DNA of 32,249 bases. Origin: a virus. Where the stretch lies: IMG/VR virus record IMGVR_UViG_3300049456_000091, positions 1-32,249 of that record. The stretch is one strand, 5' to 3'. The position numbers and the translations under genes were made by a program. Within the stretch, counting starts at the first letter, position 1; every line of letters begins with the position of its first letter. Below, one piece after another: positions 16,794 to 31,754 of the stretch. Under the pieces are notes generated by a model. That model did not search any database. It saw nothing but the letters and a program-made list of their open reading frames with translations, and was not told the DNA's origin.

Positions 16794-19700
16794 GAGACCA
16801 CCTTCAGCGGGATCGCCCCGTTGGCGGCGTCGTCGAGGGTGGAGGCGGTCTGGCTGGTGTTGCGCGCGATGGTGGCCAGCGGCTGCCACAGGGCATCGAC
16901 CACGCCCTGGGTGACCGATTGCGCCATGCCGTTGCCGGAGCCGACCGCGACCGAACCGGCCGGCGTGGTGCTGGCGGCGGCGGCCGTGGCGCTGAGCTGG
17001 GCGGCCGTGGCCGCCTGGGCGGCGGTGTTGGAATTGGCGGCGGCCTGGGCGGCGGCCGTCGCGGCTTGATACTGGGCGGCCGCCAGGGCCTGGGCCTTGG
17101 CCATGGCGTCGATGCCGGCCTGGATCGTCGCCTGCTGGGCGGCCAGGGCGACCCCCAGGCCGAGCACCGCGTCCTTCACCGAGAGCACGCTGTCGTTGAC
17201 GGTGATCAGGCCATCGACGCTGGCCTGCAACGCCGCCAGTTGGGCGTCGGCGGCGCTGGCCTGGGCATTGGCCTGGGCCTCGCCTTGGGCGGCGGCGTCG
17301 CGGGCTTCGGCGACGATGGCGTCGGCGCCCTGTTTGCTGGTGGCGATGGCGGTGTTGGAGGTCACGAAGGCGCGGATCGCGTCGGGCAGCTGGCCCAGCG
17401 CGGTCTGGTCGCCGGTGGCGGCCAGCGCCTGGACGTTGCTGAGGTTGGCGCGGTCGGCGGCGGCCTGGGCGATGGGGTCGAGGCCGGCCAGGGACCCGCT
17501 GGTGAGCTCGGCGCGCAGGCTCTTGAGGCTACCGGCGATATCGCGGAACTGTTGGGCGGTCTGGGTGAGCGAATCGGCGACCTTCTGGAACGCCGCCTGC
17601 AGGGCCGAGCGGGCCTCGTCCACCGTCTTAGCGGCGGCCTGGTTGGCCTGGTCGGCGGCCTGGGACATGGACGCGGCGTACTTCTGCACAACCTGGTCCA
17701 GCTCGGCCTTGTCGAGAGTGTCCAGCTGGGCGTTGAGGCTGGCCAGCATGTCGGCGGTGATCAGCCCCTGGTCGGCGGCGGCTTGTACGGCCGCGCGGCG
17801 GGCGTCCTGGGCGGCCTTGAGGTCCTTCAGGTCGGCGGCTTCGGGGTTGGTGATCTTCAGGAGCGCGTCGGCGAACACCCCGCCGAGCTTTTGAGCATTC
17901 TCGTAGTCGCCGAGCGCCTTGGTGATGGCGTCGAAGCCCTTGCCGGCCGCCAGCATCGACTGGACCAGCTGGCGCTCCGTGTCGGAGGCGTAGGTGGCGT
18001 CGGCCAGCATGGCCTTCAGCCCCGCCTCGGCCGCCCCGGCCGCGTCCGCCACCCCGGCCGTGAGGATCTGGCCATTGGAGAGCTGGATATGGGCGGGGTC
18101 GCGGGTGCCGATGTCGATCGACTTGACCGTGGTGGCGAAGCTGATCCCGGCGTCAGACAGCAGCTTCATGCCATCCAGCACCGCATTGGCGGCGGTGTTG
18201 GCCAAGGTGGTGGTGTCGGCGTTGCGCTTGTTGCCCGACAGGCTGAACGAACCGCCGTCGAAGGTGGCGATGGCGCCGTGGTTCGAGGGCTTGGACTTGG
18301 CCAGGTCGAAGATCGCCACCACGGCGGCGGCGGCGGCGGCGATGATCGGGTTTCCAGTCACCTCCAGGGTCGTGCCGAACGCATTTGCCCCGTCGCTGAG
18401 CGCCTTGCCGCCCTTGCCGCCGATCGCGTTGCCGGCGGCGCTGGCCAGCGCGGCCAGGCCGCCCGCGGTTCCCTGGTTCTTGAAAGCGGCCTGGACCGTC
18501 TGGATGGTCTGCTGGAAATCGTCGAACACCCGCTTCCAGTCGTGGCTTTGAAAGGCGTTGCGAAGATCGGCGGCGCTCTTGCCGGCCTCGTCGATGGCGT
18601 CGATCAGCCGGGTCTGGCGCTCGGCCAGTTTCTTCTGCGCGGCCTGCTGGGCCGGCAGGGCGGCCAGCGCCGCCTCGGCCTGGGCCCGCTCGACGGAGCC
18701 GATCTTGGCGACGTCCACCGCCTCCTGGGCCTTGGAGCGTTCGATCTGCTGGTTGATCGCCAGGATCTGCGCCTCGATCACCGCGCGGCTATAGGCCGAG
18801 GTCTGCAGGGACGCCTGCGAGGCCAACAGGTCGGCCTGGATCGACAGGGCCCCCTGCTCGCGGGCGGCGGCCTCCTGCACCGCGTCCACCCGCTGCTTTT
18901 CGGCCAGCTGGGCCTTCTGGGCGAGCTGCAGCCGGGCCTGGGCGTCCAGCGCCGCCTCAGCCTCGAGCGCCGTGGTCTTGCCCTCGGCCAGCAGGGCCTC
19001 CTGCTGGAGCACCAGGCGCTGGCGGTCGTCGTCCTGCTGGCGGGCCAGGGTGTCGGATTCCACGGCGGCGCGCTGGGCGGCGGTGGCCGCCAGGTCGGCG
19101 GTGATGGCGTTGATCTGTTCCTGGGTCTGGTTGAGCGCCGAGGATTGATCGAGGGCGTGGTTGGCCAGATCGATGCCGGCCTGGCGGATAGCGGCCTGTT
19201 TCTGTTCGTCGGCGGCCTGGTTGTTGAGCGCCTGGGCGGTCTTGGCGGCGGCGGCGGTGATCGACTTGCCGACCTCCTTGTCGAGGCCGGCGTTCTTGGC
19301 GATCCGCTCCTGCTCGATTTCCTGGACCCGGAGATCGGCCAGCTGGGCGATGTCGCCGGTCAGCGCCATGCGGGCGGCCAGCTCGGCCTTGGTCGCCTCG
19401 GCAATGGCCCGCTCGTCGCCGGCCGCAGTGGGGCCGGAGTGGCGGCTGGTCCCGGCCGCGAGCTGGGTCGCCGGTTGGGGCTTTTCGCCCGGCGCGGCCG
19501 AGAGCTGGGCCATGCCCTTGCGGATCTGGGCGGCGCGAAGATCGACGTTCAGGGCGTTCAGGGCGGCCTGCTGCGAGGCGCTGAGAGCCCCGCCGCCGCT
19601 AGTCTTCTTCACCGCCGCGATGCTGTCCTGGGTCCGGGCGATGATGGCGTCCGGCGACTCGGTGTGGGTGAGCATGGCCAGGAAGCTCAGGCCCGCCTTC

Positions 19701-20536
19701 TCGGCGTCGGCGAAGGCGCTCTTGACGCTCAAAAGGGTGTCGGCGAATTCGGCGAAGGTGACGTTGGATTTGGCCTTCATCACGTCGTCGATTTCGGAGA
19801 GCTTGTGCTTGGCCTCCTCGGCCTTGGCGATCAGGCCCGAGTCCATGACCACGCCGAGGTCTTCGGCTTCCTTGGCCAGTTTGTTGAAGTTGGCGGCGCC
19901 CTCGCGCAGCATGGGCAAGAGCTCGGAGATCCCCAGCCGCTTGGCGATGGCGGCCTGTTCGGCGGCCGAGCCGGTCTTGGCGATCCGCTCCACCAGCACC
20001 GGGAAGAAGTCGCCGACGTCGTGGAACTGACGCAGCTGCTCGGGCGAGAAGCCGACGGCGGCGAAGGCCTTGGTGGTGAGCGAGCGGGCCAGGCCCGACT
20101 GGACGAGGCCCAGGCTGGTGTTGAGGCCCTTCAGCGCCTCGTCGGCGGTCTTGACGTCGATATCCGACTGGCGGGCGGCGAAGTTGAATTTCTGGATGAA
20201 GTCGGTGGAGACCCCGATCGCCTTGGAGAGCTTGCCGAACTCGGCGCCCTCGTTGATCGCCTCGGTGGTCTTGTGCAGGGCCTCGTAGCCGACGCCCAGC
20301 GCGGCGGCGAAGGCCAGGCCCAGGGGGCCGATGGCGCCCAGCGACTTGCCGAGCAGGCCGGTGGAGCCGGCCAGCTCCTTGACCTTGTCCGTCGCGCCTT
20401 CAAAGGCTTTCTCGAGCCCCTTTTCGAGCTTGATGCCGCCCAGGGCGCCGGAAACCTTCTTGACGCCGTCGAAGAACGCCGAGGCGTCGAAGCCGAGCGT
20501 GACGAACAGGTTGCCGATCGAATTGCCGCCCGCCAT
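16790..20536 (-). CDS. Tail length tape measure protein
   Basis: A 1248-residue protein whose length would set a tail of roughly 180-190 nm by the usual rule of about 0.15 nm per residue. The N-terminal region (SIGNLFVTLGFDASAFFDGV) is typical of tape measure proteins. There are hydrophobic patches near residues 67-86 (AIGPLGLAFAAALGVGYEAL) and about 720-740 (NPIIAAAAAAVVAIFDLAK). Long Ala/Gln/Glu-rich coiled coils run through the middle and C-terminal third. It follows the tail chaperones, the universal siphovirus order. No lysozyme or peptidase domain is obvious. Confidence 0.92.
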   Translation of the reverse strand: MAGGNSIGNLFVTLGFDASAFFDGVKKVSGALGGIKLEKGLEKAFEGATDKVKELAGSTGLLGKSLGAIGPLGLAFAAALGVGYEALHKTTEAINEGAEFGKLSKAIGVSTDFIQKFNFAARQSDIDVKTADEALKGLNTSLGLVQSGLARSLTTKAFAAVGFSPEQLRQFHDVGDFFPVLVERIAKTGSAAEQAAIAKRLGISELLPMLREGAANFNKLAKEAEDLGVVMDSGLIAKAEEAKHKLSEIDDVMKAKSNVTFAEFADTLLSVKSAFADAEKAGLSFLAMLTHTESPDAIIARTQDSIAAVKKTSGGGALSASQQAALNALNVDLRAAQIRKGMAQLSAAPGEKPQPATQLAAGTSRHSGPTAAGDERAIAEATKAELAARMALTGDIAQLADLRVQEIEQERIAKNAGLDKEVGKSITAAAAKTAQALNNQAADEQKQAAIRQAGIDLANHALDQSSALNQTQEQINAITADLAATAAQRAAVESDTLARQQDDDRQRLVLQQEALLAEGKTTALEAEAALDAQARLQLAQKAQLAEKQRVDAVQEAAAREQGALSIQADLLASQASLQTSAYSRAVIEAQILAINQQIERSKAQEAVDVAKIGSVERAQAEAALAALPAQQAAQKKLAERQTRLIDAIDEAGKSAADLRNAFQSHDWKRVFDDFQQTIQTVQAAFKNQGTAGGLAALASAAGNAIGGKGGKALSDGANAFGTTLEVTGNPIIAAAAAAVVAIFDLAKSKPSNHGAIATFDGGSFSLSGNKRNADTTTLANTAANAVLDGMKLLSDAGISFATTVKSIDIGTRDPAHIQLSNGQILTAGVADAAGAAEAGLKAMLADATYASDTERQLVQSMLAAGKGFDAITKALGDYENAQKLGGVFADALLKITNPEAADLKDLKAAQDARRAAVQAAADQGLITADMLASLNAQLDTLDKAELDQVVQKYAASMSQAADQANQAAAKTVDEARSALQAAFQKVADSLTQTAQQFRDIAGSLKSLRAELTSGSLAGLDPIAQAAADRANLSNVQALAATGDQTALGQLPDAIRAFVTSNTAIATSKQGADAIVAEARDAAAQGEAQANAQASAADAQLAALQASVDGLITVNDSVLSVKDAVLGLGVALAAQQATIQAGIDAMAKAQALAAAQYQAATAAAQAAANSNTAAQAATAAQLSATAAAASTTPAGSVAVGSGNGMAQSVTQGVVDALWQPLATIARNTSQTASTLDDAANGAIPLKVVS

Positions 20537-20550
20537 TGCTCGCCTCCTGA

Positions 20551-20732
20551 TTTTCGCTTGGGCCGCCGCTCGTCGCGCGGGGCGCTCCCGACCCGACGTC
20601 GGCCGGTTTTGCTTGGGCCGCGGTCAGACCGCGGGGCGTCCTCGACCCGACGCGGCCTGGATTTTTGCTTCGGCCGCGGCCGACGCCTGCGCGAGGACCG
20701 CCCCTACGGGAGCTCCCGACCCGACGCGGCCT
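20551..20732. repeat. Three tandem copies of the palindromic intergenic element (a, b, c)
   Basis: Three head-to-tail copies lie at 20551-20606, 20607-20660 and 20661-20732. Each begins with a TTTTGCTT-like run, continues with GGCCGC and a variable inner hairpin, and ends with CGACCCGACG and GGCC, so the two ends pair. Copy c also covers the last codons and stop of the tail chaperone extension. This is the densest cluster of the family and occupies the spacer before the tape measure gene. Confidence 0.85.
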
Positions 20733-21060
20733 GTTCGGCCGCACGGCGGCGCTCGCCGCGCTCGACCAGGGCGTCGAAGAACGCCTCGATCTCGTCGTCG
20801 CTCTGGGCTTCTTCCGGCTCACCGCCGATCCGCTTCAACAGCGGCTCGAGCTCCGGCAGATCCTTGGCCCGCTGCATGGCGGCGGTGTTCCAGGATTCCA
20901 CTAGGGCATCGCGACGGCGACGGAACACCGCCTCGTTACGGCCCTTGAGGATGACGGTGAGCATCGCCGGCGTCTGGCGCCAGAAGTCGGCCGGCGGCAG
21001 GTCCAGCGAGACCCAGCTGTGGAACAGGCCTAGCCAGTCCCAGCCCCGGCCGCTGGCTTC
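20704..21060 (-). CDS. Tail assembly chaperone extension (-1 frame, probable frameshift product)
   Basis: An open frame of about 118 residues in the -1 frame relative to the upstream chaperone, overlapping its end. It contains WDWLGLFHSWVSLDLPPADF followed by WRQTPAML, the W...FW...TPAEL signature of alphaproteobacterial GTA-type tail chaperones. It then has SWNTAAMQRAKDLPELEPLL, shared by other phage tail chaperones. No ATG or GTG lies in frame upstream of the motif, so expression probably needs a -1 ribosomal frameshift, as in lambda G-GT. The last residues and stop lie inside repeat copy c. Confidence 0.7.
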   Translation of the reverse strand, partial: EASGRGWDWLGLFHSWVSLDLPPADFWRQTPAMLTVILKGRNEAVFRRRRDALVESWNTAAMQRAKDLPELEPLLKRIGGEPEEAQSDDEIEAFFDALVERGERRRAAEQAASGRELP

Positions 21061-21392
21061 CGAGGGCGCGCGGGCTTCGGCGCCTCCGCCTCGGCCGCGA
21101 AGGCCAGCCCCCAGGCCGTCAGCACGGTCTTCAGCGCCACCCCGATGCCCAGCGCGCCGACGATGCCGCGGACGGCGGCGTCGGTGAGGTCCGGATGGTG
21201 CTGCAGCAGGCCCGCGCGGATGAAGGCCACCAGGTCGGCGCTGCGCATATGCAAGGTCAGCTTCTGCGCCAACTCGCCCATGGGCAGGTCGAAGGCGTCC
21301 TCCAGGGCGGCCATGGCGTCGATGGCGAACACCAGGCGGTAGGCCTGGCCATCGACCTCGAACGCCTGCTCGCCCTTCAACGGGTTTTGCAT
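21030..21392 (-). CDS. GTA-type tail assembly chaperone (G-like), 120 aa
   Basis: A 120-residue protein with the features of the gene-transfer-agent-like tail chaperone family: FEVDGQAYRLVFAIDAMAAL near the N-terminus, MGELAQKLTLHMRSADLVAF in the middle, and a Pro/Ala/Lys-rich tail before the stop at 21030. It lies between the tail tube and tape measure genes, as G does in lambda. It would keep the tape measure protein in an assembly-ready form. The tail ends in a region overlapping the -1 frame extension. Confidence 0.8.
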   Translation of the reverse strand: MQNPLKGEQAFEVDGQAYRLVFAIDAMAALEDAFDLPMGELAQKLTLHMRSADLVAFIRAGLLQHHPDLTDAAVRGIVGALGIGVALKTVLTAWGLAFAAEAEAPKPARPRKPAAGAGTG

Positions 21393-21401
21393 GGATAGTC
21401 C

Positions 21402-21456
21402 TTTTGCTTGGCCGCCGCTCGTCGCGCGACGCGCTCCCGACCCGACGTCGGCCTAG
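21402..21456. repeat. Palindromic intergenic element (copy d)
   Basis: Nearly identical to copy a, sharing the CGCTCGTCGCGCG inner arm and the CTCCCGACCCGACGTCGGCC end. It covers the stop codon of the tail tube gene (21453-21455) and fills the spacer to the chaperone gene. Confidence 0.85.
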
Positions 21457-21881
21457 AAATTCCGGGTCACGTCGCCGGTGACCCGCAGGGTCAGGTTGGT
21501 CTCCAAGAGGGAGCCCACCGCCAGGTCGGCGCCATAGCTCTTGATGAAGGCCAGGAAGATGTAGGTCTTGCCGTTGGGGGTGGTGATCCGCACCGAGCGG
21601 GCCGCGTTGCCGCCGATCAGCGGGTCGCCCCAGTTCTCCAGATAGGTGTCGGTGGCGTCGCCGGGCTTCCAGTTCAAGGTCATGGCGGACTCGCCGAAAT
21701 CGGCCAGGTCCGCGATGAATTCCTTGGCGGTGGAATCCATGTCGGTGGCGTCGATCTCGCCCACCGAGCGGGTCGGCTTGGCGACCTTCTTGAGCATGCC
21801 GAGCTTGAACCAGTCCGAGCCGTCGCCGAGGATGCCGACGTGAACCAGCGTGCCGCTGGCCTTGATTGCCGTGGTGGCCAT
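21453..21881 (-). CDS. Major tail tube protein
   Basis: A 142-residue protein located between the tail terminator and chaperone genes, the standard place for the tube subunit. The sequence is beta-rich with the pattern of lambda V/phi-like tube proteins: GDGSDWFKLGMLKKVAKPTR, then EFIADLADFGESAMTLNWKP and TPNGKTYIFLAFIKSYGADL. It ends with RVTGDVTRNF. It would polymerise into the tail tube. GGAG lies upstream of the ATG, though element e occupies most of the space to the previous gene. Confidence 0.85.
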   Translation of the reverse strand: MATTAIKASGTLVHVGILGDGSDWFKLGMLKKVAKPTRSVGEIDATDMDSTAKEFIADLADFGESAMTLNWKPGDATDTYLENWGDPLIGGNAARSVRITTPNGKTYIFLAFIKSYGADLAVGSLLETNLTLRVTGDVTRNF

Positions 21882-21900
21882 GGGTGGATCTCCTGAGGTA

Positions 21901-21952
21901 AGGCGCGTCGGGTCGGGAGCGCGCAGCGCGACGATCGCGCCTTGGTGAAAAT
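21901..21952. repeat. Palindromic intergenic element (copy e, inverted)
   Basis: Opposite orientation to copies a-d: it begins GGCGCGTCGGGTCGGGAGC, has an inner GCGCGCAGCGC hairpin and ends GACGATCGCGCC. It is separated by three bases from copy f, which is in the other orientation, making an inverted pair. Confidence 0.85.
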
Positions 21953-21955
21953 CGG

Positions 21956-22013
21956 ATTTTTGCTGGCCGCTCGGCCGGGCCGGCTACGCCGGTCCCGATC
22001 CGATCGCGGCTAG
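21956..22013. repeat. Palindromic intergenic element (copy f)
   Basis: It begins ATTTTTGCTGGCCGC, has an inner GGCCGG-CTAC-GCCGGT-like hairpin and ends CCGATCCGATCGCGG. The stop codon of the tail terminator gene (22010-22012) lies within its end. It is paired with the inverted copy e. Confidence 0.8.
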
Positions 22014-22420
22014 GCCGGGGTGAAACACGGCCGCACCTGGAGGATGGTGCGGAACACCGTTTGGCTGCGGTCACTGGCCGGCCCGTCGGAAAGCTCGGCG
22101 GGGTCGTCGTGGCGGTCCTCGACCTCGACGCCCTGGAACGGGTCGGCGGTGAAGCTGGCGCAGGCGGCGACCACGGCGTCGGCCAGGGTCGCGGCGGCGG
22201 CGTAGTCCCCGGCTAGGCAATGGACGTCCACCAGGGGCGTGACGGTGTCCACCGGGCCGTCCATTACATAGTCGAAGCCGCCGGTGGCGCGGTGCAGGCC
22301 GATGGCCGAGGCGAACTTTCCGGGCCCCACCAGGCCCCAGGCGATGCGCTTGGGATTGGCCTCGATCAGCGCCGAGATCGCGGCGTTGGCCAGCAGGGCG
22401 GCGCGCAGGGCGGGCTCCAT
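22010..22420 (-). CDS. Tail terminator/completion protein (DUF3168-like)
   Basis: A 136-residue protein with the DUF3168 pattern: MEPALRAALLANAAISALIE, then RIAWGLVGPG, the DYVMDGPVDTVTPLVDVHCL strand pair, and a helix AATLADAVVAACASF. The family caps the tail at the head-proximal end (SPP1 gp17/lambda U role). It lies between the HK97 gp10-like gene and the tail tube gene, as expected. Confidence 0.8.
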   Translation of the reverse strand: MEPALRAALLANAAISALIEANPKRIAWGLVGPGKFASAIGLHRATGGFDYVMDGPVDTVTPLVDVHCLAGDYAAAATLADAVVAACASFTADPFQGVEVEDRHDDPAELSDGPASDRSQTVFRTILQVRPCFTPA

Positions 22421-22429
22421 GGAAAGACC

Positions 22430-22489
22430 TTTTTGCTGGTCGCTCGGCCGTCACGCCTTGCGGCGCTCCCGATCCGCTCGCGACGGTTC
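22430..22489. repeat. Palindromic intergenic element (copy g)
   Basis: A diverged copy: it begins TTTTTGCTGGTCGCTCGG, has an inner CGCC-TTGC-GGCG hairpin and ends CTCCCGATCCGCTCGCGAC. It abuts the stop codon of the HK97 gp10-like gene (22488-22490). Confidence 0.8.
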
Positions 22490-23102
22490 AGCCCTTCGGC
22501 GACCGCGACCGCGCGCGGGCGGCGGCCTTGGTGATCTGGGCGGCCAGAGCGGTCTTCAGGGTCTCGGCGACTTCGCCTTGGGTCTCTTCGAAGGCCGGGC
22601 GCAGGAACGGCTTGGGCGCGGCGCCCGGGTGATCGACCTCATGGGCGACGCCGACCACGGCCCCGCCCTGCCAGATCTCCAGCACCTCGCCGCGGCGGGG
22701 CCGGATCTTGTGCGGCCGGACCCCGAATTCAATCTGCGACGCCACGCTGGACTTGGCCTTGGCCGGCCCGACCAGCACCACGATCGCCGGGCCATCGCGC
22801 TGGGCGGTGCGCAGGGCCTTGACCGCGGCGGCGTCGGACAGGCCGCCGTGTTTGGCCGTCGCGAAGGCGGCCTTGCCCAGCACCTGCTTGCCGTTGGAGG
22901 CGACGAGGATAGAGGCGGCCAGCTTGCCGGAGCGTTTGGGGGCATTGGCCTTCATCCGGTCGGCGAGGGGCTGGGCGGCGGCCACCAGCGCCCGCTTGAC
23001 CACGGCCTTGCCGGTGCGGCCGGAGGTCTGTTCCACCAGCTCCTGCAGGGCCGCGTTGAGCGCGGCCAGGCCGGTGATCTTGGCGGTTACGCCGTTGGCC
23101 AT
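22488..23102 (-). CDS. HK97 gp10-like head-tail/tail completion protein
   Basis: A 204-residue protein of the HK97 gp10 family. The N-terminus reads KITGLAALNAALQELVEQTS. The family-typical KANAPKRSGKLAASI follows in the first third, and ASQIEFGVRPHKIRPRRGEV and PKPFLRPAFEETQGEVAETL appear toward the end. It participates in joining the tail to the head connector. It is longer than many homologues because of an insert around residues 70-105 and a basic C-terminal tail. Confidence 0.85.
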   Translation of the reverse strand: MANGVTAKITGLAALNAALQELVEQTSGRTGKAVVKRALVAAAQPLADRMKANAPKRSGKLAASILVASNGKQVLGKAAFATAKHGGLSDAAAVKALRTAQRDGPAIVVLVGPAKAKSSVASQIEFGVRPHKIRPRRGEVLEIWQGGAVVGVAHEVDHPGAAPKPFLRPAFEETQGEVAETLKTALAAQITKAAARARSRSPKG

Positions 23103-23124
23103 TCGCTTTGCTCCCGGCTCTGAT

Positions 23125-23181
23125 CTTTGCTGGGCCGCGATCAGAACGCCGAGGCGTTCTCGACCCGACGCCGGCCGGTCA
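23125..23181. repeat. Palindromic intergenic element (copy h)
   Basis: It begins CTTTGCTGGGCCGCG, has an inner AGAACGCC-GAG-GCGTTCT hairpin and ends CGACCCGACGCCGGCC. It includes the stop codon of the head-tail joining gene (23179-23181). Confidence 0.85.
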
Positions 23182-23514
23182 GGTCACCCTTGCTGAGGCG
23201 GTGATCTCAAGGCCCACGCGGCGGCCGACCGGCTTGACGGCGGTGATGCCGTAGACCCGGTCCTCGAACAGGACCTGGTCGGCCGGGGTCAGACTGGCGG
23301 CGACCGACGACCAGCGGATGAGGAAGCGGTCGGTGACCGAGGCCCCGACCTGCTCGGCGCGGACCCGTTCGCCGTCGCTGATCGGCGTATATTGCGCCGC
23401 CACCCCGCCGGGGACCAGATCCACCCAGGGATCGGCGACCGGGCCGCCATAGTCGTCGGTCCCGGCGCTGGCGCGCTGGAGCCGGATACGGCGGTCGAGG
23501 TCGCCGGCGCGCAT
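23179..23514 (-). CDS. Phage head-tail joining protein (SPP1 gp16-like)
   Basis: A 111-residue protein of the Phage_H_T_join family. It begins MRAGDLDRRIRLQRASAGTD and continues with the family DDYGGPVADPWVDLV strand pair, then TDRFLIRWSS and VLFEDRVYGITAVKPVGRRV. It forms the stopper ring between connector and tail. It starts three bases after the stop of the preceding gene, a compact pair. Confidence 0.88.
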   Translation of the reverse strand: MRAGDLDRRIRLQRASAGTDDYGGPVADPWVDLVPGGVAAQYTPISDGERVRAEQVGASVTDRFLIRWSSVAASLTPADQVLFEDRVYGITAVKPVGRRVGLEITASARVT

Positions 23515-23517
23515 GGC

Positions 23518-23931
23518 TTAAGGCTTGGCGACGCCGGCCGGGACGTAGTTGAGCTGGATCTCGGTGGCCGAGACGCCGAAGCCGATGAAGGTCGGGTACA
23601 TGCCGGTGGCGATATCCGCCGCCGGACAGATGCCGCCGGCCGTGGCCGAGCCGAAATAGGGCGTGCCCGCCACGACCGTGGCGCCGATGGCGATCTTGCC
23701 GCCACGCTGGATAGTCAGCGGCTGGCCCGCCGCGCAGCTGTGGCAGGCGGTGCCGCGGATGACGCGGGCCTCGGCGGTGGCCGAGTCCGCGTCGTGCAGC
23801 TTGCACTTGGTGGTGGCGGCCTCGAGATAGACCTGCTGGCCGGCGATGACAGCGACGGCGGCGATGTGCTGTTCGAACGCAGCGTCAGCGCCGGGAACGA
23901 CGCTGGCGGCGGTGATGACGAGGTCGGCCAT
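23518..23931 (-). CDS. Putative capsid decoration-like protein, 137 aa
   Basis: Not firmly assigned. The sequence is beta-rich with repeated VxAGxxVYLEAAT-type strands: DLVITAASVVPGADAAFEQH, then VIAGQQVYLEAA and AAGQPLTIQRGGKIAIGATV. It ends with GFGVSATEIQLNYVPAGVAK. This layout resembles DUF2190/decoration-type phage proteins that stud the head surface. It is located among the connector genes. GGAG precedes the ATG by eight bases. Other structural roles are possible. Confidence 0.6.
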   Translation of the reverse strand: MADLVITAASVVPGADAAFEQHIAAVAVIAGQQVYLEAATTKCKLHDADSATAEARVIRGTACHSCAAGQPLTIQRGGKIAIGATVVAGTPYFGSATAGGICPAADIATGMYPTFIGFGVSATEIQLNYVPAGVAKP

Positions 23932-23957
23932 GGGGATTCTCCGGAAGGGTCAGGAAG

Positions 23958-23972
23958 GCGAACGGCGTTCGC
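23958..23972. repeat. 15-bp palindrome GCGAACGGCGTTCGC (copy 2 of 3)
   Basis: The same seven-base arms as at 3943-3957 and 28623-28637. It lies 27 bases upstream of the start of the decoration-like gene, a position where a binding site could affect expression. It is distinct from the longer elements. Confidence 0.5.
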
Positions 23973-23991
23973 GGGTGAGGTTGGGAAAACG

Positions 23992-24050
23992 TGACGCGTC
24001 GGGTCGGGAGGTCCCGAAGGGCCGACGATCGCGCCACAAGTAAAAATTTA
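23992..24050. repeat. Palindromic intergenic element (copy i, inverted)
   Basis: It begins GACGCGTCGGGTCGGGAGG, has an inner TCCC-GAA-GGG-type hairpin and ends CGACGATCGCGCC, followed by AAGTAAAAATTTA. It reaches the stop codon of the connector gene (24048-24050). Confidence 0.85.
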
Positions 24051-24644
24051 CAGGCGAGGGACGCGGAATGGCTTGAGCAGCCGGGCCACCGCGGGGTTCG
24101 CATCGACGGCGACGCGGACGTCGATGATCTGGCCCTCGCGGTGCTCGAAGAGGTCGGCGGTGAGCAGTTTGATGGCCGCCTTGAGGTTGCCGGGCACGGC
24201 CGCGGCGGCGCCATAGCCGGCGACGAAGGTGATATTGACGGCGCGCGGGTGGGCGGGGGCCAGGATCGGCCAAACCTTGCCGGACAAAAGCCGCAGACCG
24301 GCCAACGGGCCATCAAGGACGGTGTAGAGGTTCGGGTCCACCGTCTGGCTGACGCCGTTGACGTCCAGATAGCTGAAGGTGGTCAGGCTGATCAGCGGCG
24401 GCAGCGGCAGGTGGACCATCAGGCCCGGCCAGCACTCGAAGCTGAGGGTCCAGGACTGCTGCACCAGGCAGCGGCCGAGCACCCCGCCGTAACCGTCCAG
24501 CAGGCCGTGGACGGCGTTCAGCATGGCGGTGATGTCGGCGTCGTGCTCGGTGATCCCGGCGTCGATCCGCAGGTGCGACTTCATCTCGTCGAGCGAGACG
24601 GCCAGGGTGGCCGGCGGCGCGGCGAGGCGAAGATCCTGCAGCAT
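24048..24644 (-). CDS. Head-tail connector protein (gp6-like)
   Basis: A 198-residue protein of the HK97 gp6/TIGR02215-like connector family. The conserved helix is SLDEMKSHLRIDAGITEHDA near the N-terminus, followed by ITAMLNAVHGLLDGYGGV. A beta part with SWTLSFECWPGLMVHLPLPP and VNITFVAGYG comes next, and the C-terminal helix is LKAAIKLLTADLFEHREG. It forms the ring under the portal. It is expressed in the head operon before the joining protein. Confidence 0.88.
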   Translation of the reverse strand: MLQDLRLAAPPATLAVSLDEMKSHLRIDAGITEHDADITAMLNAVHGLLDGYGGVLGRCLVQQSWTLSFECWPGLMVHLPLPPLISLTTFSYLDVNGVSQTVDPNLYTVLDGPLAGLRLLSGKVWPILAPAHPRAVNITFVAGYGAAAAVPGNLKAAIKLLTADLFEHREGQIIDVRVAVDANPAVARLLKPFRVPRL

Positions 24645-24650
24645 CGCGGC

Positions 24651-24869
24651 CTAACGGGTCTCGCGCGGGCCAGCGGTGGCCTTGGCGCGACGCGACGCTG
24701 GACCCGAGGCTGGGACCGAGGCCGCCGGCGGCGTCCAGAGGCCGCAGACGAACTTGGCGTAGCGGCCGGCCACCAGCGCCTGACCGAGCGCCGCGCCCAC
24801 GACCTTGTCCTCGCCGGCGTCAGCGGCGAAATCCGGACCCTGCGCGATGGTGACCATCTTCACCAACAT
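24651..24869 (-). CDS. Small hypothetical head-region protein, 72 aa
   Basis: Not recognised. It starts three bases after the previous stop at the ATG at 24869; an ATG four codons later is possible. The body (MVTIAQGPDFAADAGEDKVV, then ALVAGRYAKFVCGLW) looks folded, and the last 25 residues are Pro/Ala/Arg-rich. It is encoded between the small protein at 24873 and the connector gene in a tight series, so it is very likely expressed with the head genes. Confidence 0.55.
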   Translation of the reverse strand: MLVKMVTIAQGPDFAADAGEDKVVGAALGQALVAGRYAKFVCGLWTPPAASVPASGPASRRAKATAGPRETR

Positions 24870-24872
24870 GGC

Positions 24873-25112
24873 TTAGGCCGCGATGCCCATCAGCTTCAGC
24901 CGCGCGTCGAGGGCGCGGATCCAGGCGACGATAGCGTCGGCCTGGGCCTGGCTGTAGCCATAGGGCGTGGTGTTGGTGGCGGCGGTCGCGGCCGGCGCCG
25001 TCAGGGTGACCGCGCCGCCGTCGTAGGTGATCGAGCCGCCCGGCGCGACGTCGAGCTGGTCGCCGCCCTGGATCATGCGGATCTTGGTGTTGTAGGTGGG
25101 ATCGGCGGCCAT
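24873..25112 (-). CDS. Small hypothetical structural-region protein, 79 aa
   Basis: Not recognised. The N-terminal half is beta-like and Gly/Asp/Thr-rich (TYNTKIRMIQGGDQLDVAPG, then SITYDGGAVTLTAPAA). The C-terminal helix is YSQAQADAIVAWIRALDARL. A short beta domain plus helix resembles head-fibre or decoration-type small proteins. It is tightly linked to the gene downstream, with three bases between, supporting a virion or assembly role. Confidence 0.6.
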   Translation of the reverse strand: MAADPTYNTKIRMIQGGDQLDVAPGGSITYDGGAVTLTAPAATAATNTTPYGYSQAQADAIVAWIRALDARLKLMGIAA

Positions 25113-25129
25113 GGGCGGTGCTCCTAAGG

Positions 25130-25184
25130 GCGCGGCGCACGTCGGGTCGGAAGGGCTTCGCCCGACGATCGCGCGACAGGTTTA
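25130..25184. repeat. Palindromic intergenic element (copy j, inverted)
   Basis: It contains CACGTCGGGTCGG, an inner AAGGGC-TTC-GCCC hairpin and CGACGATCGCGCG. It reaches the stop codon of the MptE-like gene at 25182-25184 and lies 18 bases beyond the start of the 79-residue gene. Confidence 0.85.
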
Positions 25185-25967
25185 AGGGACGTTCGGAAGG
25201 ACGATCTTGCCGCCCACCAGGGGCGACGGATGATTGGTGTGGTCGTAGGCCGCCTCGATCTCGGCGGCGGCGGGCAGGACCGGACGCTCGACGAACTCCA
25301 CGCGGGCGCTGACTTCGCCGTTGCGGCCGGCGGGCGCGTCGTGGATCCGCACGTCGCGCGAGCCCATGGCGCCATAGCCGTAGAGCGACAGGCCCTCGCA
25401 GGTGTCCAGCAGCGACGATCCCTCGGAGACGTTGATGGCGATGCCCCGCTCGTGGGCGACGCCCAGCCAGAACTCGACGCAGGCGCGGCCCTTCTCGGCG
25501 TGGTGGGCGTTGGCGTAGGTGTAGTCGATGCCGAACAGGCTGACGGTCGCCGCCCCCTCGGCGATCGCCAGGGCGACGGCATAGGCGGCGGTGGAATTGA
25601 AATAGGCGTGGCCGGCGGCGTTGATCACGTCCTGCAGCGGAAACTCCACCAGGCCGGGGTAATCTGGGTGCAGGCGGCTGGTGTAGATCGGACCCGGGTG
25701 GGTCTTCATCCAGCCGAGCATGCGGGCGATGTTCGACTGCGGCAGGGCGGCGGCGCGGATCTCCTGGATGCGCACGTCGTCCATGTGGAAGATCCGGTCG
25801 CAGGCGACGACGTCGCCCAGCGCATTGATCGCCCAGACCTGGTCGCCCAGGGCCGACCGGCCGCCCAGTTGGCGAGCCAGGTTGAGGTATTGGTTCAGCG
25901 ACGGGCCAAGGCCCAGGATGACGACGTGCAGACCCTTGGCGGTCGCGGGCGGGGGAGATGACGACAT
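25182..25967 (-). CDS. MptE/DUF115-like Rossmann-type protein in the head module
   Basis: A 261-residue protein whose motifs resemble the DUF115/MptE-like group (glycosyltransferase- or pyrophosphokinase-like Rossmann fold). Visible are VVILGLGPSLN at the N-terminus, then WAINALGDVVACDRIFHMDD, then PIYTSRLHPDYPGLVEFPL. YFNSTAAYAVALAIAEGAAT and SLFGIDYTYANAHHAEKGRA follow. Similar proteins occur in other phages without known function. An enzyme between the capsid and connector genes suggests modification of a virion or surface component, but the reaction is unknown. The last 60 residues look like a separate beta tail. Confidence 0.6.
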   Translation of the reverse strand: MSSSPPPATAKGLHVVILGLGPSLNQYLNLARQLGGRSALGDQVWAINALGDVVACDRIFHMDDVRIQEIRAAALPQSNIARMLGWMKTHPGPIYTSRLHPDYPGLVEFPLQDVINAAGHAYFNSTAAYAVALAIAEGAATVSLFGIDYTYANAHHAEKGRACVEFWLGVAHERGIAINVSEGSSLLDTCEGLSLYGYGAMGSRDVRIHDAPAGRNGEVSARVEFVERPVLPAAAEIEAAYDHTNHPSPLVGGKIVLPNVP

Positions 25968-26083
25968 GGGGGAGGTCTCGAAGGGGCGGGGGAGAGCGGG
26001 AGCGCCTGGACCGCCGGTGTGACGCAGCGGCCCAGGCTCGACGGCCCGAGGTCTCCCCCGAGCCCCCGGGCGTCGATCCGGTC

Positions 26084-26518
26084 CTAGGCGGCGGTGGGCT
26101 GCTTGCGGGCGCCGCCGAGGATGACGTTGGCGCCGGCGACGATGCCACCGGACACGGTGGGCGCCATCACCACCTGGACGTATCGCTTCGCGCCCTTGTA
26201 AGCCGCGCGCTTGACGACGTTCTTGCCGACCCCGGAGGTCCGCGCGGTCGCCTGCACCGGCATGCCGGCCAGGAGCTCGGTGGAGATCAGATCGGCGTCG
26301 GCGACCGAGGTCATGGTCCCGGTGACGTCACCCTCCTTGAAGGTGACGACGACGGTGGCGCCGGTGGCGGTGATCGCCCCGTAGCTCAGCTCGAACTCGA
26401 CGGTCTCGAAGCCGTTGCGATCGATCACGACGCCGGTCTTGCCGCCGGAGCCGGTGGCGCCGAGCGAGATCGGCGCGATCGAGCGCACGACGCGGATCTG
26501 ATTGTGGCCCTCGGCCAT
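26084..26518 (-). CDS. Putative capsid-associated protein, 144 aa
   Basis: Not assigned to a named family. The ATG at 26518 is preceded by GAAGGAA; the open frame extends upstream through a repeat element but without a plausible start. The sequence is beta-rich: HNQIRVVRSIAPISLGATGS, then VEFELSYGAITATGATVVVT, GKNVVKRAAYKGAKRYVQVV and PTVSGGIVAGANVILGG. Its position directly after the major capsid gene, and its own strong ribosome-binding site, suggest an abundant virion protein such as a decoration or minor capsid protein. Confidence 0.6.
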   Translation of the reverse strand: MAEGHNQIRVVRSIAPISLGATGSGGKTGVVIDRNGFETVEFELSYGAITATGATVVVTFKEGDVTGTMTSVADADLISTELLAGMPVQATARTSGVGKNVVKRAAYKGAKRYVQVVMAPTVSGGIVAGANVILGGARKQPTAA

Positions 26519-26530
26519 GGCTGAATTCCT

Positions 26531-26584
26531 TCTTTTCTGGTCGCGCGATCGTCGGCCTGCGGCCGCCCGACCCGACGCGCTGCG
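26531..26584. repeat. Palindromic intergenic element (copy k)
   Basis: It begins TCTTTTCTGGTCGCGCG, has an inner GGCC-TGC-GGCC hairpin and ends GCCCGACCCGACGCGC. It is the only copy not abutting a stop codon: the capsid stop is 48 bases away, and it lies in the spacer before the capsid-associated gene. Confidence 0.8.
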
Positions 26585-26631
26585 TGGATTGGGGAATCGC
26601 CCCGGGGCCGAAGCCGCCGGGGCGACGGGGT

Positions 26632-27879
26632 TTAGGCCAGCTTGACGCGGGCGAAGGCTTCCTCGAGCACCGGCATGCCGTCCAGCTCGGCGCGGCCGAT
26701 GAAGCCGTCCTGGTTGGTGGCCGCATAGAGCTCGCGCAGCGCCTGGACCTGCATGTCGAGGCAGTCGGCGATCCAATAGTTGGAGAAGTCGCCGAACAGC
26801 CCGACGTAGAGGCCGGTGGTGAAGGTGTTGGGGGCGTATTCCGACACGCTGAGCGGGTTGCCCAGGATCGAGTCCGGCTCACCTTCGCGCACCGACATCC
26901 GCCACAGATATTGGCCCTCGCCGTCCTTCAGCTTGGTGAGCATCTTCACCGCGTCGCGGTGGAACAGCCATTCGCCCTTGGTCCAATACTGGGCCTTGGT
27001 GGAATATTTGGCCTCGCTCAGACCGTCGAAGGTGATGGCTGTCGTGGTGTTGCCGGTGGAAACGTCGCGGCCGGTGGAGATGCCGTCGCTGGAAGCGGTA
27101 AACACGCCCAGCGGCTGGTTGTTGCCCGAGCCGGTGAGGAAGCCCTTCTCTTCGCTGATCGCGAACTTATAGGCCAGCCGGGCCAAGATGGTGGCTTCCG
27201 CCGGCAGGGCCGAGGTGCGCAGCAGGGTCTTGGAGACCTTGATCAGCTTGGCCAGCGGGTGCGGCTTCAGCTCGCGCTTGCCGAAGCTCATGGTGGAGTC
27301 CTCGCCGCCGGTGGCGATCTCGGTGGTCCAGTCGGCGTCGGCCGGATCGTTGTCGAGCGACGGCGCGCCCAGGCCGTTCGAGCTCGCCACGCGGAACTTG
27401 GTGGCCTTGCCGCGGATGAACACCAGGTTGTCGACGGCCTGGATCAGTTGGGCCACGAACTCCTGGGGCGCCAGCAGATAGCCGCCGGCGGTGTTGGGGG
27501 TGACGGCGAGCGCGCGTTGCTCATCGGCGGTGAGGGCCGTGGCGCCGTTCAGCAGATAGCTGCGGAAGGCCTTCATCCGGACGGCGCGGACCTCATCAGG
27601 CTCGCCGGTATCCGCCTCGCCGGTTTCGCGGGCCTTGCGGGCCCGCTCCTCGGCGTCGCGGCCGGCGGCCTCGGCGTCCTGGCGGGCGAGCTCGAGGTTG
27701 CGCTCCTCGGCCTGGATCAGCTTCCGCTTGGTCTCGGATTCGTTGAAGAGGGTCTCGTGCTGGGCGAGCTCCTCATTGGTCATGTCGCGCTTCTCGGCGC
27801 CGGCCTTGTCCATCAGGGCCTGCATCGCCGTGACGGCCGTACCCCGCGCTTCGCGCAGGCTCTTGAGACGATCGCTCAT
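26632..27879 (-). CDS. Major capsid protein, HK97 fold
   Basis: A 415-residue HK97-family capsid subunit. The N-terminal 105 residues are a charged coiled coil (the delta/scaffolding domain: MDKAGAEKRDMTNEELAQHE, then KLIQAEERNLELARQDAEAA), normally removed by the prohead protease. The mature part begins near VRAVRMKAFRSYLL, with the family motif TPNTAGGYLLAPQEFVAQLI. Later it carries GFLTGSGNNQPLGVF and TKAQYWTKGEWLFHRDAVK. The ATG at 27879 has AAGGAA about eight bases upstream. It follows the protease gene, as in HK97. Confidence 0.95.
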   Translation of the reverse strand: MSDRLKSLREARGTAVTAMQALMDKAGAEKRDMTNEELAQHETLFNESETKRKLIQAEERNLELARQDAEAAGRDAEERARKARETGEADTGEPDEVRAVRMKAFRSYLLNGATALTADEQRALAVTPNTAGGYLLAPQEFVAQLIQAVDNLVFIRGKATKFRVASSNGLGAPSLDNDPADADWTTEIATGGEDSTMSFGKRELKPHPLAKLIKVSKTLLRTSALPAEATILARLAYKFAISEEKGFLTGSGNNQPLGVFTASSDGISTGRDVSTGNTTTAITFDGLSEAKYSTKAQYWTKGEWLFHRDAVKMLTKLKDGEGQYLWRMSVREGEPDSILGNPLSVSEYAPNTFTTGLYVGLFGDFSNYWIADCLDMQVQALRELYAATNQDGFIGRAELDGMPVLEEAFARVKLA

Positions 27880-27948
27880 CGTTGAGTTCCTTTCGGGTGG
27901 GGGCTCTTCACCGCCCCCGGGTGACTGCCGCCTGCGCGGCGGGAGATT

Positions 27949-28006
27949 CGTCGCGGGTCGGGTCGGGAGCGCCGCAGGCGCGACGATCCCGCGACCAGCA
28001 AAAATG
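27949..28006. repeat. Palindromic intergenic element (copy l, inverted)
   Basis: It contains GTCGCGGGTCGGGTCGGGAG, an inner CGCC-GCA-GGCG hairpin and CGACGATCCCGCGACCAGC, followed by AAAAATGA. The end lies two bases from the stop codon of the protease gene (28008-28010). It sits in the 128-bp spacer before the capsid gene. Confidence 0.85.
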
Positions 28007-28007
28007 A

Positions 28008-28598
28008 CTAGACGCGCGCCTGCAGCTGGCGGGCGCGGGCGAGGTTGAGGTGGCGCGCCGCCTGGGCCTGGACCACCTCGGTCCACGCCCGCATCTCCCG
28101 CAGGCCGACGTCGGTCTGCGGATAGGCCGGGAAGACCACCGGCGAGACGTCGAAACAGCGCAGGCTCTTGAGGGTGCGGACCACGCGGCCCTCATCGTCC
28201 TTGGCCCAGTCCTGGCCGTTGGGGCGGACCGAGAAACCGAAGCTCATCTGGCTGACGTCGCCGCGCTCGATGGGGGCCAGCACCAGGTCGCGAATGGTCT
28301 GGGTGTCCGGCACATCGATCTCGATGGCCAGGCCGCGGCTGTCTTCCTTCAGGCGCAGGGTCTTGGAGCGGTTGCGGCCGAGGATGAAGTTCGAGTCATG
28401 GTTGAACAGGGCGCGGACGTCGTCGGAGCCGTCCACGGCGCTGGCGAAGGCGCCGGGAACGATCTGCTCGCGGAAGCCGCCGAGATCCTCCGACAGCTGG
28501 TTGAACACCGCGGCGTGACCGCGCAGCACCGGCGCCTTGCCCTCGCGGGTTTCGACGGCCAGGCCCTCGACGGCGAAGAAGCGGCGTTCGAGATCCAT
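28008..28598 (-). CDS. HK97-family prohead protease
   Basis: A 196-residue serine protease (herpesvirus-assemblin fold, U35/S78) that trims the capsid delta domain and itself during head maturation. The likely catalytic residues are H67 (RALFNHDSNFILGR) and S119 (in DVSQMSFGF). The conserved GHAAVFNQLSEDLGGFREQI and VLAPIERGDVSQMSFGFSV motifs are present. It starts three bases after the portal stop. The C-terminus is a charged tail rich in Arg/Ala. Confidence 0.93.
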   Translation of the reverse strand: MDLERRFFAVEGLAVETREGKAPVLRGHAAVFNQLSEDLGGFREQIVPGAFASAVDGSDDVRALFNHDSNFILGRNRSKTLRLKEDSRGLAIEIDVPDTQTIRDLVLAPIERGDVSQMSFGFSVRPNGQDWAKDDEGRVVRTLKSLRCFDVSPVVFPAYPQTDVGLREMRAWTEVVQAQAARHLNLARARQLQARV

Positions 28599-28601
28599 GG
28601 T

Positions 28602-29963
28602 TTAGGCCTCTGTCAGGTCGGGGCGAACGGCGTTCGCGGTGAGGAATTGGGTCAGGGCGCGGGTCAAGAGGTCGCTCTGGTCACGCTGCGAGGCGGTGGG
28701 GGCGGTCTTCAGGAGCACGTCCATGATCCGGCTGGCCGGGGCCATGTTCAGCGGTTGCAGGCGGTCGTCGCCGCCCGGCAGTGGGGCCAGGTTCATCTGG
28801 CGGCGGATCTCGTTGGGGGTCATCAGGCCCCACTGGACCAGCAGGCCGTAGCCTTCCATGCGGGTCTTGAAGTCGCCGCGCAGCAGGCCGTCGATGTTGA
28901 ACTCGAAGTAGAACCGGCGGCGCATCCCCTCGCTCATCAGGGCGGCGTTCAGCGCCTGTTCCCAGACCACGAACTTGGGTCGCATGTAGTAGGTGATGAA
29001 GCCGATCGACTGCTGCTCGATGCCGGTCCCGAAGTTGGAGACGCCATTGGTCTCGCCGATCAGGAAGCCCGGCACGCCGAACACCCGGGCGATCTTGTTG
29101 ACCGCCATGCCGTGGGTCTCGACGATCTTGGCGTCGTCGTTGGACATGGCTAGGGCCTTGATGTCCATGCCGCCCTCGAGGATGGCGACGCGGTGGGCGT
29201 TTTCCAGGCCCCGGTGACGGCGTTCCCAGGTCTCGCGCAGCCGGTCGGCCGCCTCGTTGGACAGTTCGGCCGGGATGGTGATCGCCGATTTCGGTGTGGC
29301 GTTGTTGCCGAAGAACCGGCTGAGATAGTCGCCGCAGGCCTGGGCCAGGCCTATGGTCTCGCGGTGGCGTTCGACCTTGGATTCGGCCTCGACGATGTTG
29401 CCGCGCTTGGGCGGGCCGCCGCGCAGGTGGAGCACTTCATGCTGCAGCAGCGTGCGGGCGGCGGCGCCGTCCGGCGGGGTCCAGCGGTAGGCGACCCCGG
29501 CGGCGGTGCGGAACGGGCGGAATTCGGAGGGATGGCCGGGCTCCAGCGCCATGGGCCCGCGCGGGCCGGTGACGATGCGCGCGTAGCTGTTGCCGTGGGT
29601 CTGGCGCCAGCCTTCCATCATCTGGCGGAATTCGGCCGAGGTCTGCCAGCCGTTGGGCTGGTCATGCAACAGGGCGTGCAGCGGGTTTTCCGGCCGCGCG
29701 ACCCGCTCGGCATCGGAGATCCGCTCGAAGAAATCCAGCGGGACGGTGGCGACGGTGTCTTCCAGCAGGCCGACGCAGGCATCGACCTCGGGGCTGCGGC
29801 GGGCGTTGTCGGGGGTGACGCTGACGCCGGAGGCGGTGGCGGCATATTGGCCGAACCATTCGGCGATCACCGGATCGCGCGGCGGGCCGAGGTTGGCGAC
29901 CTGGGCGCGGGATTCAGAGCCGCCGAACAGGCGGGAGAGCAGGGACCGTCCGTCTTTCGCCAT
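28602..29963 (-). CDS. HK97-family portal protein
   Basis: A 453-residue portal protein that forms the dodecameric DNA channel at one head vertex and docks the terminase. Family features are SPEVDACVGLLEDTVATVPL in the N-terminal third, DQPNGWQTSAEFRQMMEGWR, then HGNSYARIV, and GLMTPNEIRRQMNLAPLPGG near the C-terminus. The last 15 residues span the palindrome at 28623-28637. Copy m precedes its start, with GAGGGGATCC giving the ribosome-binding site. Confidence 0.93.
   Translation of the reverse strand: MAKDGRSLLSRLFGGSESRAQVANLGPPRDPVIAEWFGQYAATASGVSVTPDNARRSPEVDACVGLLEDTVATVPLDFFERISDAERVARPENPLHALLHDQPNGWQTSAEFRQMMEGWRQTHGNSYARIVTGPRGPMALEPGHPSEFRPFRTAAGVAYRWTPPDGAAARTLLQHEVLHLRGGPPKRGNIVEAESKVERHRETIGLAQACGDYLSRFFGNNATPKSAITIPAELSNEAADRLRETWERRHRGLENAHRVAILEGGMDIKALAMSNDDAKIVETHGMAVNKIARVFGVPGFLIGETNGVSNFGTGIEQQSIGFITYYMRPKFVVWEQALNAALMSEGMRRRFYFEFNIDGLLRGDFKTRMEGYGLLVQWGLMTPNEIRRQMNLAPLPGGDDRLQPLNMAPASRIMDVLLKTAPTASQRDQSDLLTRALTQFLTANAVRPDLTEA
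28623..28637. repeat. 15-bp palindrome GCGAACGGCGTTCGC (copy 3 of 3)
   Basis: This copy lies inside the portal gene close to its 3' end, encoding part of its C-terminal TANAVR sequence. The same palindrome as at 23958-23972, with seven-base arms around one base. Confidence 0.5.
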
Positions 29964-29975
29964 CGGATCCCCTCA

Positions 29976-30030
29976 TGTTTGCTTTGGGCGCGGTCAGAAC
30001 GCATCCGCGTTCTCGACCCGACGCGCCCAG
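29976..30030. repeat. Palindromic intergenic element (copy m)
   Basis: The clearest folded copy: GGGCGCG pairs with CGCGCCC, and the inner AGAACGC-ATCC-GCGTTCT-type arms pair around a four-base loop. Between the stems lies the conserved CGACCCGACG. It sits six bases from the terL stop codon (30036-30038) and just before the portal gene. Confidence 0.9.
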
Positions 30031-30035
30031 GGCGC

Positions 30036-31754
30036 CTAGCGCAGGCCCCCGCCCGCGAGGATCATCGTCTCGAAGTCCACCTTGCGGCCCGCCTGGGGCC
30101 GCCGGCTCATCAGCTCGAAGGCGTTGAAGTGGGCGCAGAGCGGATCGATCTTGGCCTTGCCGGCGGCCTGTTTGGTGACCAGGACCGCATTGCCGCGGGC
30201 CTCGACCTTGGCGTTGCCCACCGCCCAGCGCATCAGCGCCTGGGGGGCGACGCGCAGGGTGCCGTCCTTCAGCTTGCGCTGGGCGCCCCAGACGGCGGCC
30301 GACAGCTTGTAGCCCTGGCTGATCGCCACCACCTGGCCCTCGGCGTCGGTGATGTCGTGGTCGGCCAGCGCATCCACCGTGGCGGCGATGCAGACCGGAT
30401 CGAGGCCGACGCCGCCCTTGGCCGCTAGCTTGCCAGCGTCGCGGATCTTCACAACGATGGCGGTGAGCTCTTCGATGTCCTGGGTGGGGGTGGTGCAGAG
30501 CGTCAGCTCGCCCAGTTCCGCCAGGTCCTGCAGTTTCGGGGCGTTCTGCGGCCGAAGCCGCAGCACATCGTCCTGGGCCCAGGCGTGGGCCCAGCTGAGC
30601 CATAGCCCCGTGCCGGCCTCGCGGCCGATGGCGTCCAGGCCCACCAGGTCGTCGAGGCCGCCGCCGTCGATGCCGACCACGATGACCTCGCACCGCGCGA
30701 TCAGGTCGTCGAGGCTGACCAGGCTCTGGTCCTCGGCTTGCTCCCAATAGTCGGCGCCGACCCAGCGGTCGTTCATCAGGGTCAGGCCGATCTCGACGTT
30801 GAGATGCTTGGCCAGGAAGGTCTGTTTTTCGCCGCCCTGGGCGTGGAGGATCTTGGCCAGCTCGTCGGAGAGCCATTCGACATCGACGCTGCGGTCGAGG
30901 TTGGGGTTGGTGATGTAGAAGTTCTGCGGGTCGAGATAGGCCTCGGCCTCGAGCATCTTTTCCGGGAATTCGTAGAGCAGGCCCAGGCTCTTGGGATCGA
31001 CGATCAGGCCGTCGCGGACGGCGCGGAAGTAGTGCAACTTGGCCTTGAACACCCCGGCCGGCGGTTCGTCGGCGTGGGTGGTGAGGAAGATCACGAAGCC
31101 TTCCGGCCGCGACACCAGGCCGCCGGTGGCCTCGCGGATGATCGCGTCGGCCCGCGGCCGCTTGCCGAACACCCAAAGCTCGTCCACCAGGACGAAGGCG
31201 GCCTTCTTGCCGGAAACGATGTCCGAATCGGCCGCCACCACCTTCAGCACCGCGTCGGTGAGCCGGTGGGTGATCTGGCGCAGATGCTCTTGGATGTAGA
31301 GCAGTTTGGAGAGCTCGGGGTCGGCCTTGACCATGTCGCGGGCCGGGAAGAAGGCGTTGTTGGCGACTTCGAGCGTCGGGGCCAGCAGCAGCAGTTCGGC
31401 GGACATCCGCCAGTTGCGCACCAGGGCGGTGACCATGATCCCGGCGGCGATGGTGGACTTGGAATTCTTCTTGCTGATCAGCAGGAAGAACTCGCGGATC
31501 AGGCGGCGGCCGGCGGCGGCGTCATAGGCGCCGAAGATCGCGGCGACGAAGTCGAACACCCAGGGCTCGCAGGCCTCGCCGAAGGTGGGCGACCCGGCGG
31601 CATCGACGATACGCAGGGTCTTGAAGACCGCCAGCGCCGCCTCGGCCTCGGCGGGGAACAGCGGCGGGGGCAGCAGGCTCTGGCGCGCGACGATCCGTTC
31701 GCGCCAGTCGGGGCAGGCGGTGCACCAGCTGGCGGACTCGGCCGGGGCGGCCAT
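30036..31754 (-). CDS. terL: Terminase large subunit
   Basis: A 572-residue packaging ATPase/nuclease of the HK97-type Terminase_1 family. The N-terminal ATPase has a Walker-A-like loop at 94-101 (SKKNSKST, deviating from the classic GxxxxGKT as is usual in this family), Walker B at 186-192 (AFVLVDEL) and a coupling motif FLTTHAD at 223-229. The C-terminal RNase-H-like nuclease starts near [14 protein letters not shown], where D363 is a candidate metal ligand. Its ATG overlaps the small-subunit stop (ATG/TGA). Confidence 0.95.

Follow-up and report, generated by a model that had tools for sequence, protein, structure and literature searches.

Thirteen palindromic elements in the late operon of a temperate phage as likely members of an interspersed repeat family of Caulobacteraceae

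Why should the structural gene junctions of one phage carry thirteen copies of a related palindrome? The DNA analysed here, called the window throughout, corresponds to a virus record in IMG/VR (32,249 bp) that encodes a tyrosine integrase and is a temperate phage of Caulobacter-family bacteria. PHROGs annotation reveals an HK97-type late operon on the minus strand, comprising terminase, portal, protease, major capsid, connectors, major tail protein, tail chaperones and tape measure, and the elements are held in the gaps of its segment from terminase large subunit to tape measure (16790..31754). In the head-tail genes, GC at third positions reaches about 0.92, versus about 0.75-0.85 in many ORFs called in the rest of the window, suggesting a mosaic origin of the window. 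The left end of the record (1-162) is a glycine-rich (GGX)n coding repeat.

Alignment and covariance modelling demonstrated that thirteen related palindromes of approximately 51 nt are indeed present and alignable. Two covariance models were used, R2 with scores in bits and R3, trained on chromosomal copies only, with E values. Element a (20555..20605, plus strand; 54.6 bits, E 7.7e-7), element b (20609..20659, plus; matched by both models) and the long variant c (20665..20733, plus; 45.6 bits, E 5.9e-4) form a c-b-a tandem with a period of approximately 55 nt, in which b is the middle and a the third copy, the tape-measure start following 18 nt further on. Element d (21404..21454, plus; both models) lies at the junction of major tail protein and chaperone and is 90% identical to a. 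Before the major tail protein, element e (21899..21949, minus; both models) forms an inverted pair with f (21960..22012, plus; 39.7 bits, E 0.062), which belongs to a divergent subtype (CGATCCGATCG), as does g (22433..22486, plus; 42.4 bits, E 0.15). Element h (23126..23177, plus; both models) occurs at the head closure/neck junction, and i (23990..24043, minus; R3 E 3.9e-12), the window copy closest to chromosomal copies (91%), at the head-tail adaptor junction. They are followed by j (25133..25183, minus), k after the major capsid protein (26534..26584, plus), l at the protease/major capsid junction (27949..28001, minus) and m at the terminase/portal junction (29979..30030, plus), all matched by both models. 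Both orientations occur, as the preliminary description had reported, with nine copies on the plus strand and four (e, i, j and l) on the minus strand. Its restriction of the elements to the head-tail part was likewise confirmed: all thirteen sit in minus-strand gaps between terminase and tape measure, and a search by R3 with every filter off yielded no convincing copy in the rest of the window.

In model orientation, TTTTGCT often comes first. The outer stem, with 5-8 pairs, then opens and leads into a conserved RTC block; next come an inner hairpin, which is variable and has 4-7 pairs, and the conserved block CGACCCGACG, after which the outer stem closes. The TTTTGCT end had been described as a common feature of all copies; it is found in six of the thirteen, an exact match being absent from the other seven. 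The conserved block is present at all thirteen sites, exactly in ten and with one change in l, which ends CGACCCGACC, while f and g deviate by CGATCCG in place of CGACCCG; the exact block is absent from the rest of the window. Its pairing is ambiguous, as RTC fits either of two GA steps. Two main subtypes, GTCG..CTCCCGACCCGACG and AGAA..TTCTCGACCCGACG, are common to phage and hosts, and f and g with their CGATCCG constitute a third; automatic extraction of the apical loop was unreliable in the CGATCGTCG subtype. No curated covariance model of Rfam matches the element up to E=1.

The stems had been proposed to vary while keeping their pairing, and covariation was clearly observed in the inner as well as the outer stem. 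Among the window copies alone, 163 of 179 cells were paired versus 127.8 in shuffles, and double-sided changes numbered 30 versus 9.8, neither count being reached in any of 2000 shuffles. Covariation was also strong in a set of 29 mixed copies, and in 45 chromosomal copies 67 double-sided cells compared with 19.2 after shuffling. The chromosome-only model recovered 11 of the 13 window copies at E<6e-4; f (0.06) and g (0.15) ranked next, with nothing elsewhere in the window scoring better than these two. Taken individually, elements a, c, d and k had weak folding z-scores. Chance and GC-rich composition are thus ruled out as an explanation, since covariation exceeds that of the shuffles and a model built on host sequences alone finds the window copies. 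This recovery also shows that the elements of phage and hosts form a single family of common descent with a conserved two-stem hairpin. Mean column identity among copies is 53-66%, and many phage copies have chromosomal copies as their most similar relatives.

The search of Caulobacteraceae chromosomes that the preliminary description had proposed located the family in Brevundimonas and Phenylobacterium. When 84,980 species genomes were scanned with a sequence pattern, 13 loci emerged, the majority from Caulobacterales; pattern matches in Actinomycetes and Geodermatophilus were not upheld by the covariance model. By the same type of model, the family is patchy in Brevundimonas (30 of 61 genomes, with from at least 1 to at least 17 copies) and occurs in 12 of 100 Phenylobacterium genomes (from at least 1 to at least 3 copies), these copy numbers being lower bounds because scoring was confined to the best 28-150 candidates of each genome. 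A MAG labelled Bordetella, which turned up with Brevundimonas in the genus sample, carried seven copies. An order-wide sample was positive in 10 of 200 genomes, nine of which were among those already drawn from Brevundimonas and Phenylobacterium; apart from the one further genome, no copy was detected among the remaining sampled genomes of the order. Two consensus copies had no match on plasmids, so that spread by plasmids was discarded. Among 56 host copies examined, 46 are located outside called genes, and the chromosomal copies adjoin ordinary genes such as polA, gdh, ftsK/lolA, a CorA-type transporter, an FtsJ-family methyltransferase and pseudopilin operons. At the 3' end of polA, the elements are paired in two species of Phenylobacterium (L071 7555-7661; L155 2394-2496).

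The family also extends to other phages. Three prophages carry it: G010, the closest relative of the window phage (terminase 68% and capsid 76% identical), has two copies, G117 has one at the junction corresponding to that of element i, and G037 has four, at terminase/portal and after the capsid gene, together with one more upstream. Twelve other viral records were positive, L012 with three copies, G168 with one and ten more with 1-4, and where flanking genes were identified these were mostly structural. Viral matches in the first two pattern searches were mostly due to chance, the real ones being L012 in the first and L129 in the second. Among isolated phages, one weak consensus match (MT837438) was not confirmed by the covariance model, and no copy was present in the compared stretches of capsid relatives from IMG/VR (L020-L045; 25 of 26 scanned). 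The earlier remark that phage genomes rarely hold so many such repeats is therefore borne out, with mostly 1-4 copies in the other records. At 13 copies in 9.5 kb, the density in the window phage is far above that in hosts and other phages.

Taken together, we consider it likely that the thirteen elements belong to an interspersed palindromic repeat family, approximately 51 nt long, of Caulobacteraceae (Brevundimonas, Phenylobacterium) and their temperate phages. Mobility is supported chiefly by junctions that hold a copy in one genome and none in another, which favour the view that the elements behave as insertions. In three-way junction alignments (window, G010, L020), copies present in one phage are precisely absent from others, and the rest of the gap is conserved around the missing copy, most clearly at protease/capsid. 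Terminase/portal and protease/capsid, the sites of m and l, are filled in the window and empty in L069 and L020, while portal/protease is filled in L069 only. A chromosomal example is the gap between ftsK and lolA, which is filled in G031 and, by a separate copy in opposite orientation immediately behind the stop, in G395; most of 29 aligned orthologues are empty there. Such scattered single occupancy favours gain, though deletion could explain any single site. With relatives only about 70-80% similar, target-site duplications are unreadable.

The elements prefer gaps behind stop codons. The preliminary description had most copies abutting or including the upstream stop, and this applies to eight (m, l, j, i, h, g, f and d), which begin at most 6 nt after the stop or overlap it by at most 3 nt. 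It does not apply to k, located 47 nt beyond the capsid stop, or to e, b and a, which are further members of pairs or tandems. Many copies leave just 11-23 nt, ribosome site included, before the next gene. Between terminase and tape measure, every operon gap of more than 10 nt is occupied except one (25968-26083, 116 nt). This element-free gap is GC-rich, and its GGGGGAG and CTCCCCC stretches could pair.

How might such a distribution arise? Copies may move as DNA hairpins by means of an activity acting in trans or by copy-type recombination, and they would land or survive solely where no gene is broken. As a long and tight late operon offers few safe sites beyond its cistron boundaries, copies would collect there. 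Local multiplication may have contributed, as suggested by the tandem arrangement of c-b-a and the 90% likeness of a and d; the inverted f/e pair points in the same direction. Simple drift from the host pool does not obviously yield the density in the window phage. Against a mobile repeat counts the host copy number, which, taken as lower bounds, is low for a successful element of this kind. Once transcribed, copies could form stable intercistronic hairpins that may protect the upstream message or set the ratios of late proteins, and such an effect on expression could make the elements tolerated or useful. A more far-reaching proposal, that of a Y1-independent class of mobile hairpins with phages as the vehicle, spreading in the late operon by local copying at stops and acting as regulator of the head/tail ratio, appears doubtful to us.

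In several respects the family resembles REP/REPIN sequences with their RAYTs (PMC3116915), which are likewise short extragenic palindromes with compensatory changes, placed singly, in tandem or inverted between genes. The present elements are also short extragenic palindromes in several copies per genome. They differ from the published systems by their low copy number, their density in a phage, the lack of a Y1 association, a two-stem layout and the asymmetry of the conserved block. That they are true REP/REPIN elements moved by a REP-associated tyrosine transposase (RAYT) is in our view very improbable. The compensatory changes and the tandem and inverted doublets would fit, and a Y1 gene is present in the element-bearing genomes G004, G010 and G031. 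However, Y1_Tnp (PF01797) was detected in only 2 of 61 Brevundimonas genomes compared with the element in 30 of 61, and 28 of the 30 element-bearing genomes had no PF01797 match. Furthermore, Y1 loci scanned with the covariance model (L089, L090) contained no element, and no Y1 domain was found in the window proteins tested. As Y1 does not track the element, the layout is REP-like but the defining link to a RAYT was not recovered. Of the earlier reading, REP-like mobile palindromes that are shared with Caulobacteraceae chromosomes and resemble insertions thus hold up, while mobilisation by a RAYT does not. Screening for Y1/PF01797 in Brevundimonas and among the window proteins identified no transposase or other mobiliser for the family. 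REP elements associated with RAYTs carry a signature tetranucleotide, GTAG or GGAG, at the 5' foot of the hairpin. Counted at any position in a copy, GTAG occurs in 2 of 13 window and 2 of 45 chromosomal copies; GGAG occurs in 7 of 13 and 44 of 45, respectively, again at any position and not specifically at the stem foot.

Folding and covariation fit an RNA hairpin and a single-stranded DNA hairpin equally. A second explanation is that the elements are intercistronic RNA hairpins maintained by selection, which would shield upstream mRNA from 3'-5' exonucleases and set the proportions of head and tail proteins. The stable, covarying stems between nearly all non-overlapping late cistrons agree with this, as do their position after stops with 11-23 nt to the next start at many junctions and their recurrence in distant phages, both after the capsid gene (window, L069, G037, G415) and near the tail terminator or tail protein (L012, G410). 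On the other hand, the same junctions are without a copy in close relatives, the family also occurs outside phages and orientation is mixed. The coding strand also displays no wobble bias (4 G-U versus 6 A-C mispairs), thus giving no sign of selection on the mRNA strand. As judged from the sequence, tuning of late mRNA by hairpins is plausible, but as the explanation of the elements this selective role is rather unlikely. Intrinsic terminators were rejected, as no GC-rich stem followed by a T run occurs at any element, and no sigma-70 promoter was found at the elements.

Two further explanations were weighed against a mobile repeat family. Boundary sequences serving as recombination linkers would aid modular exchange between phage genes and would be expected at gene boundaries of a mosaic module and in unrelated phages, as observed. 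However, at the mean column identity given above the copies offer short homology only, copy-free junctions also show steps in identity (L020: TerL 47% versus portal 72%) and chromosomal copies have no such role, which leaves linkers very improbable. Double-stranded DNA operators, such as repressor stoperators, would account for repeated, partly palindromic sites along one operon; yet the stems covary rather than keep one sequence, copies point both ways and members of the family also lie at the ends of ordinary chromosomal genes, and we regard operators as extremely improbable.

Considered as a repeat family, the elements can be compared with other known systems. Caulobacter CIR repeats, likewise intergenic hairpin repeats of Caulobacter and relatives, have two arms, GANTC sites and a length of approximately 110 bp (PMC2229807). 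The present elements are of approximately 51 nt, and GANTC (CcrM) sites are absent from all 58 copies (0 of 13 and 0 of 45), so that identity with CIR was rejected. Like bacterial MITEs, reviewed in the same paper (PMC2229807), they are small non-autonomous insertions that form stem-loops, but of about half the usual MITE size. Cluster O mycobacteriophages likewise have many palindromes within one genome; these 17-bp repeats have invariant arms, are likely protein sites and are distributed genome-wide, partly in genes (PMC4351075), whereas the present elements covary, sit in late gaps and are common to host chromosomes. Integron attC sites were also rejected, the core boxes GTTRRRY/RYYYAAC being found in 0 of 13 window and 4 of 45 chromosomal copies. 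No description of the family was found in the literature searched, which covered few subscription papers and is not proof of novelty. A repeat family outside Rfam that joins host chromosomes and phages is now defined, a host 'hitchhiker' DNA whose copies have accumulated in a viral gene cluster, and it offers junctions of essential genes that are naturally occupied in some genomes and vacant in others. Two questions thereby become testable, namely how palindromic repeats move without a RAYT and whether intercistronic palindromes affect expression in a tightly regulated viral operon.

Some copies may also contribute coding sequence. In two Brevundimonas genomes, elements occur at successive gene junctions within pseudopilin operons for Type II secretion (L097 5939-6600; L099 6431-7539). 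Open frames there continue across the element into the GFTLVEL pilin motif, and leader peptides may thus be encoded by the repeat. In the window, a second frame (20704-21060) overlaps the tail chaperone gene (21030-21392) and has its stop inside element c. This arrangement matches the expectation for a programmed frameshift of tail chaperones, with element c supplying the C-terminus.
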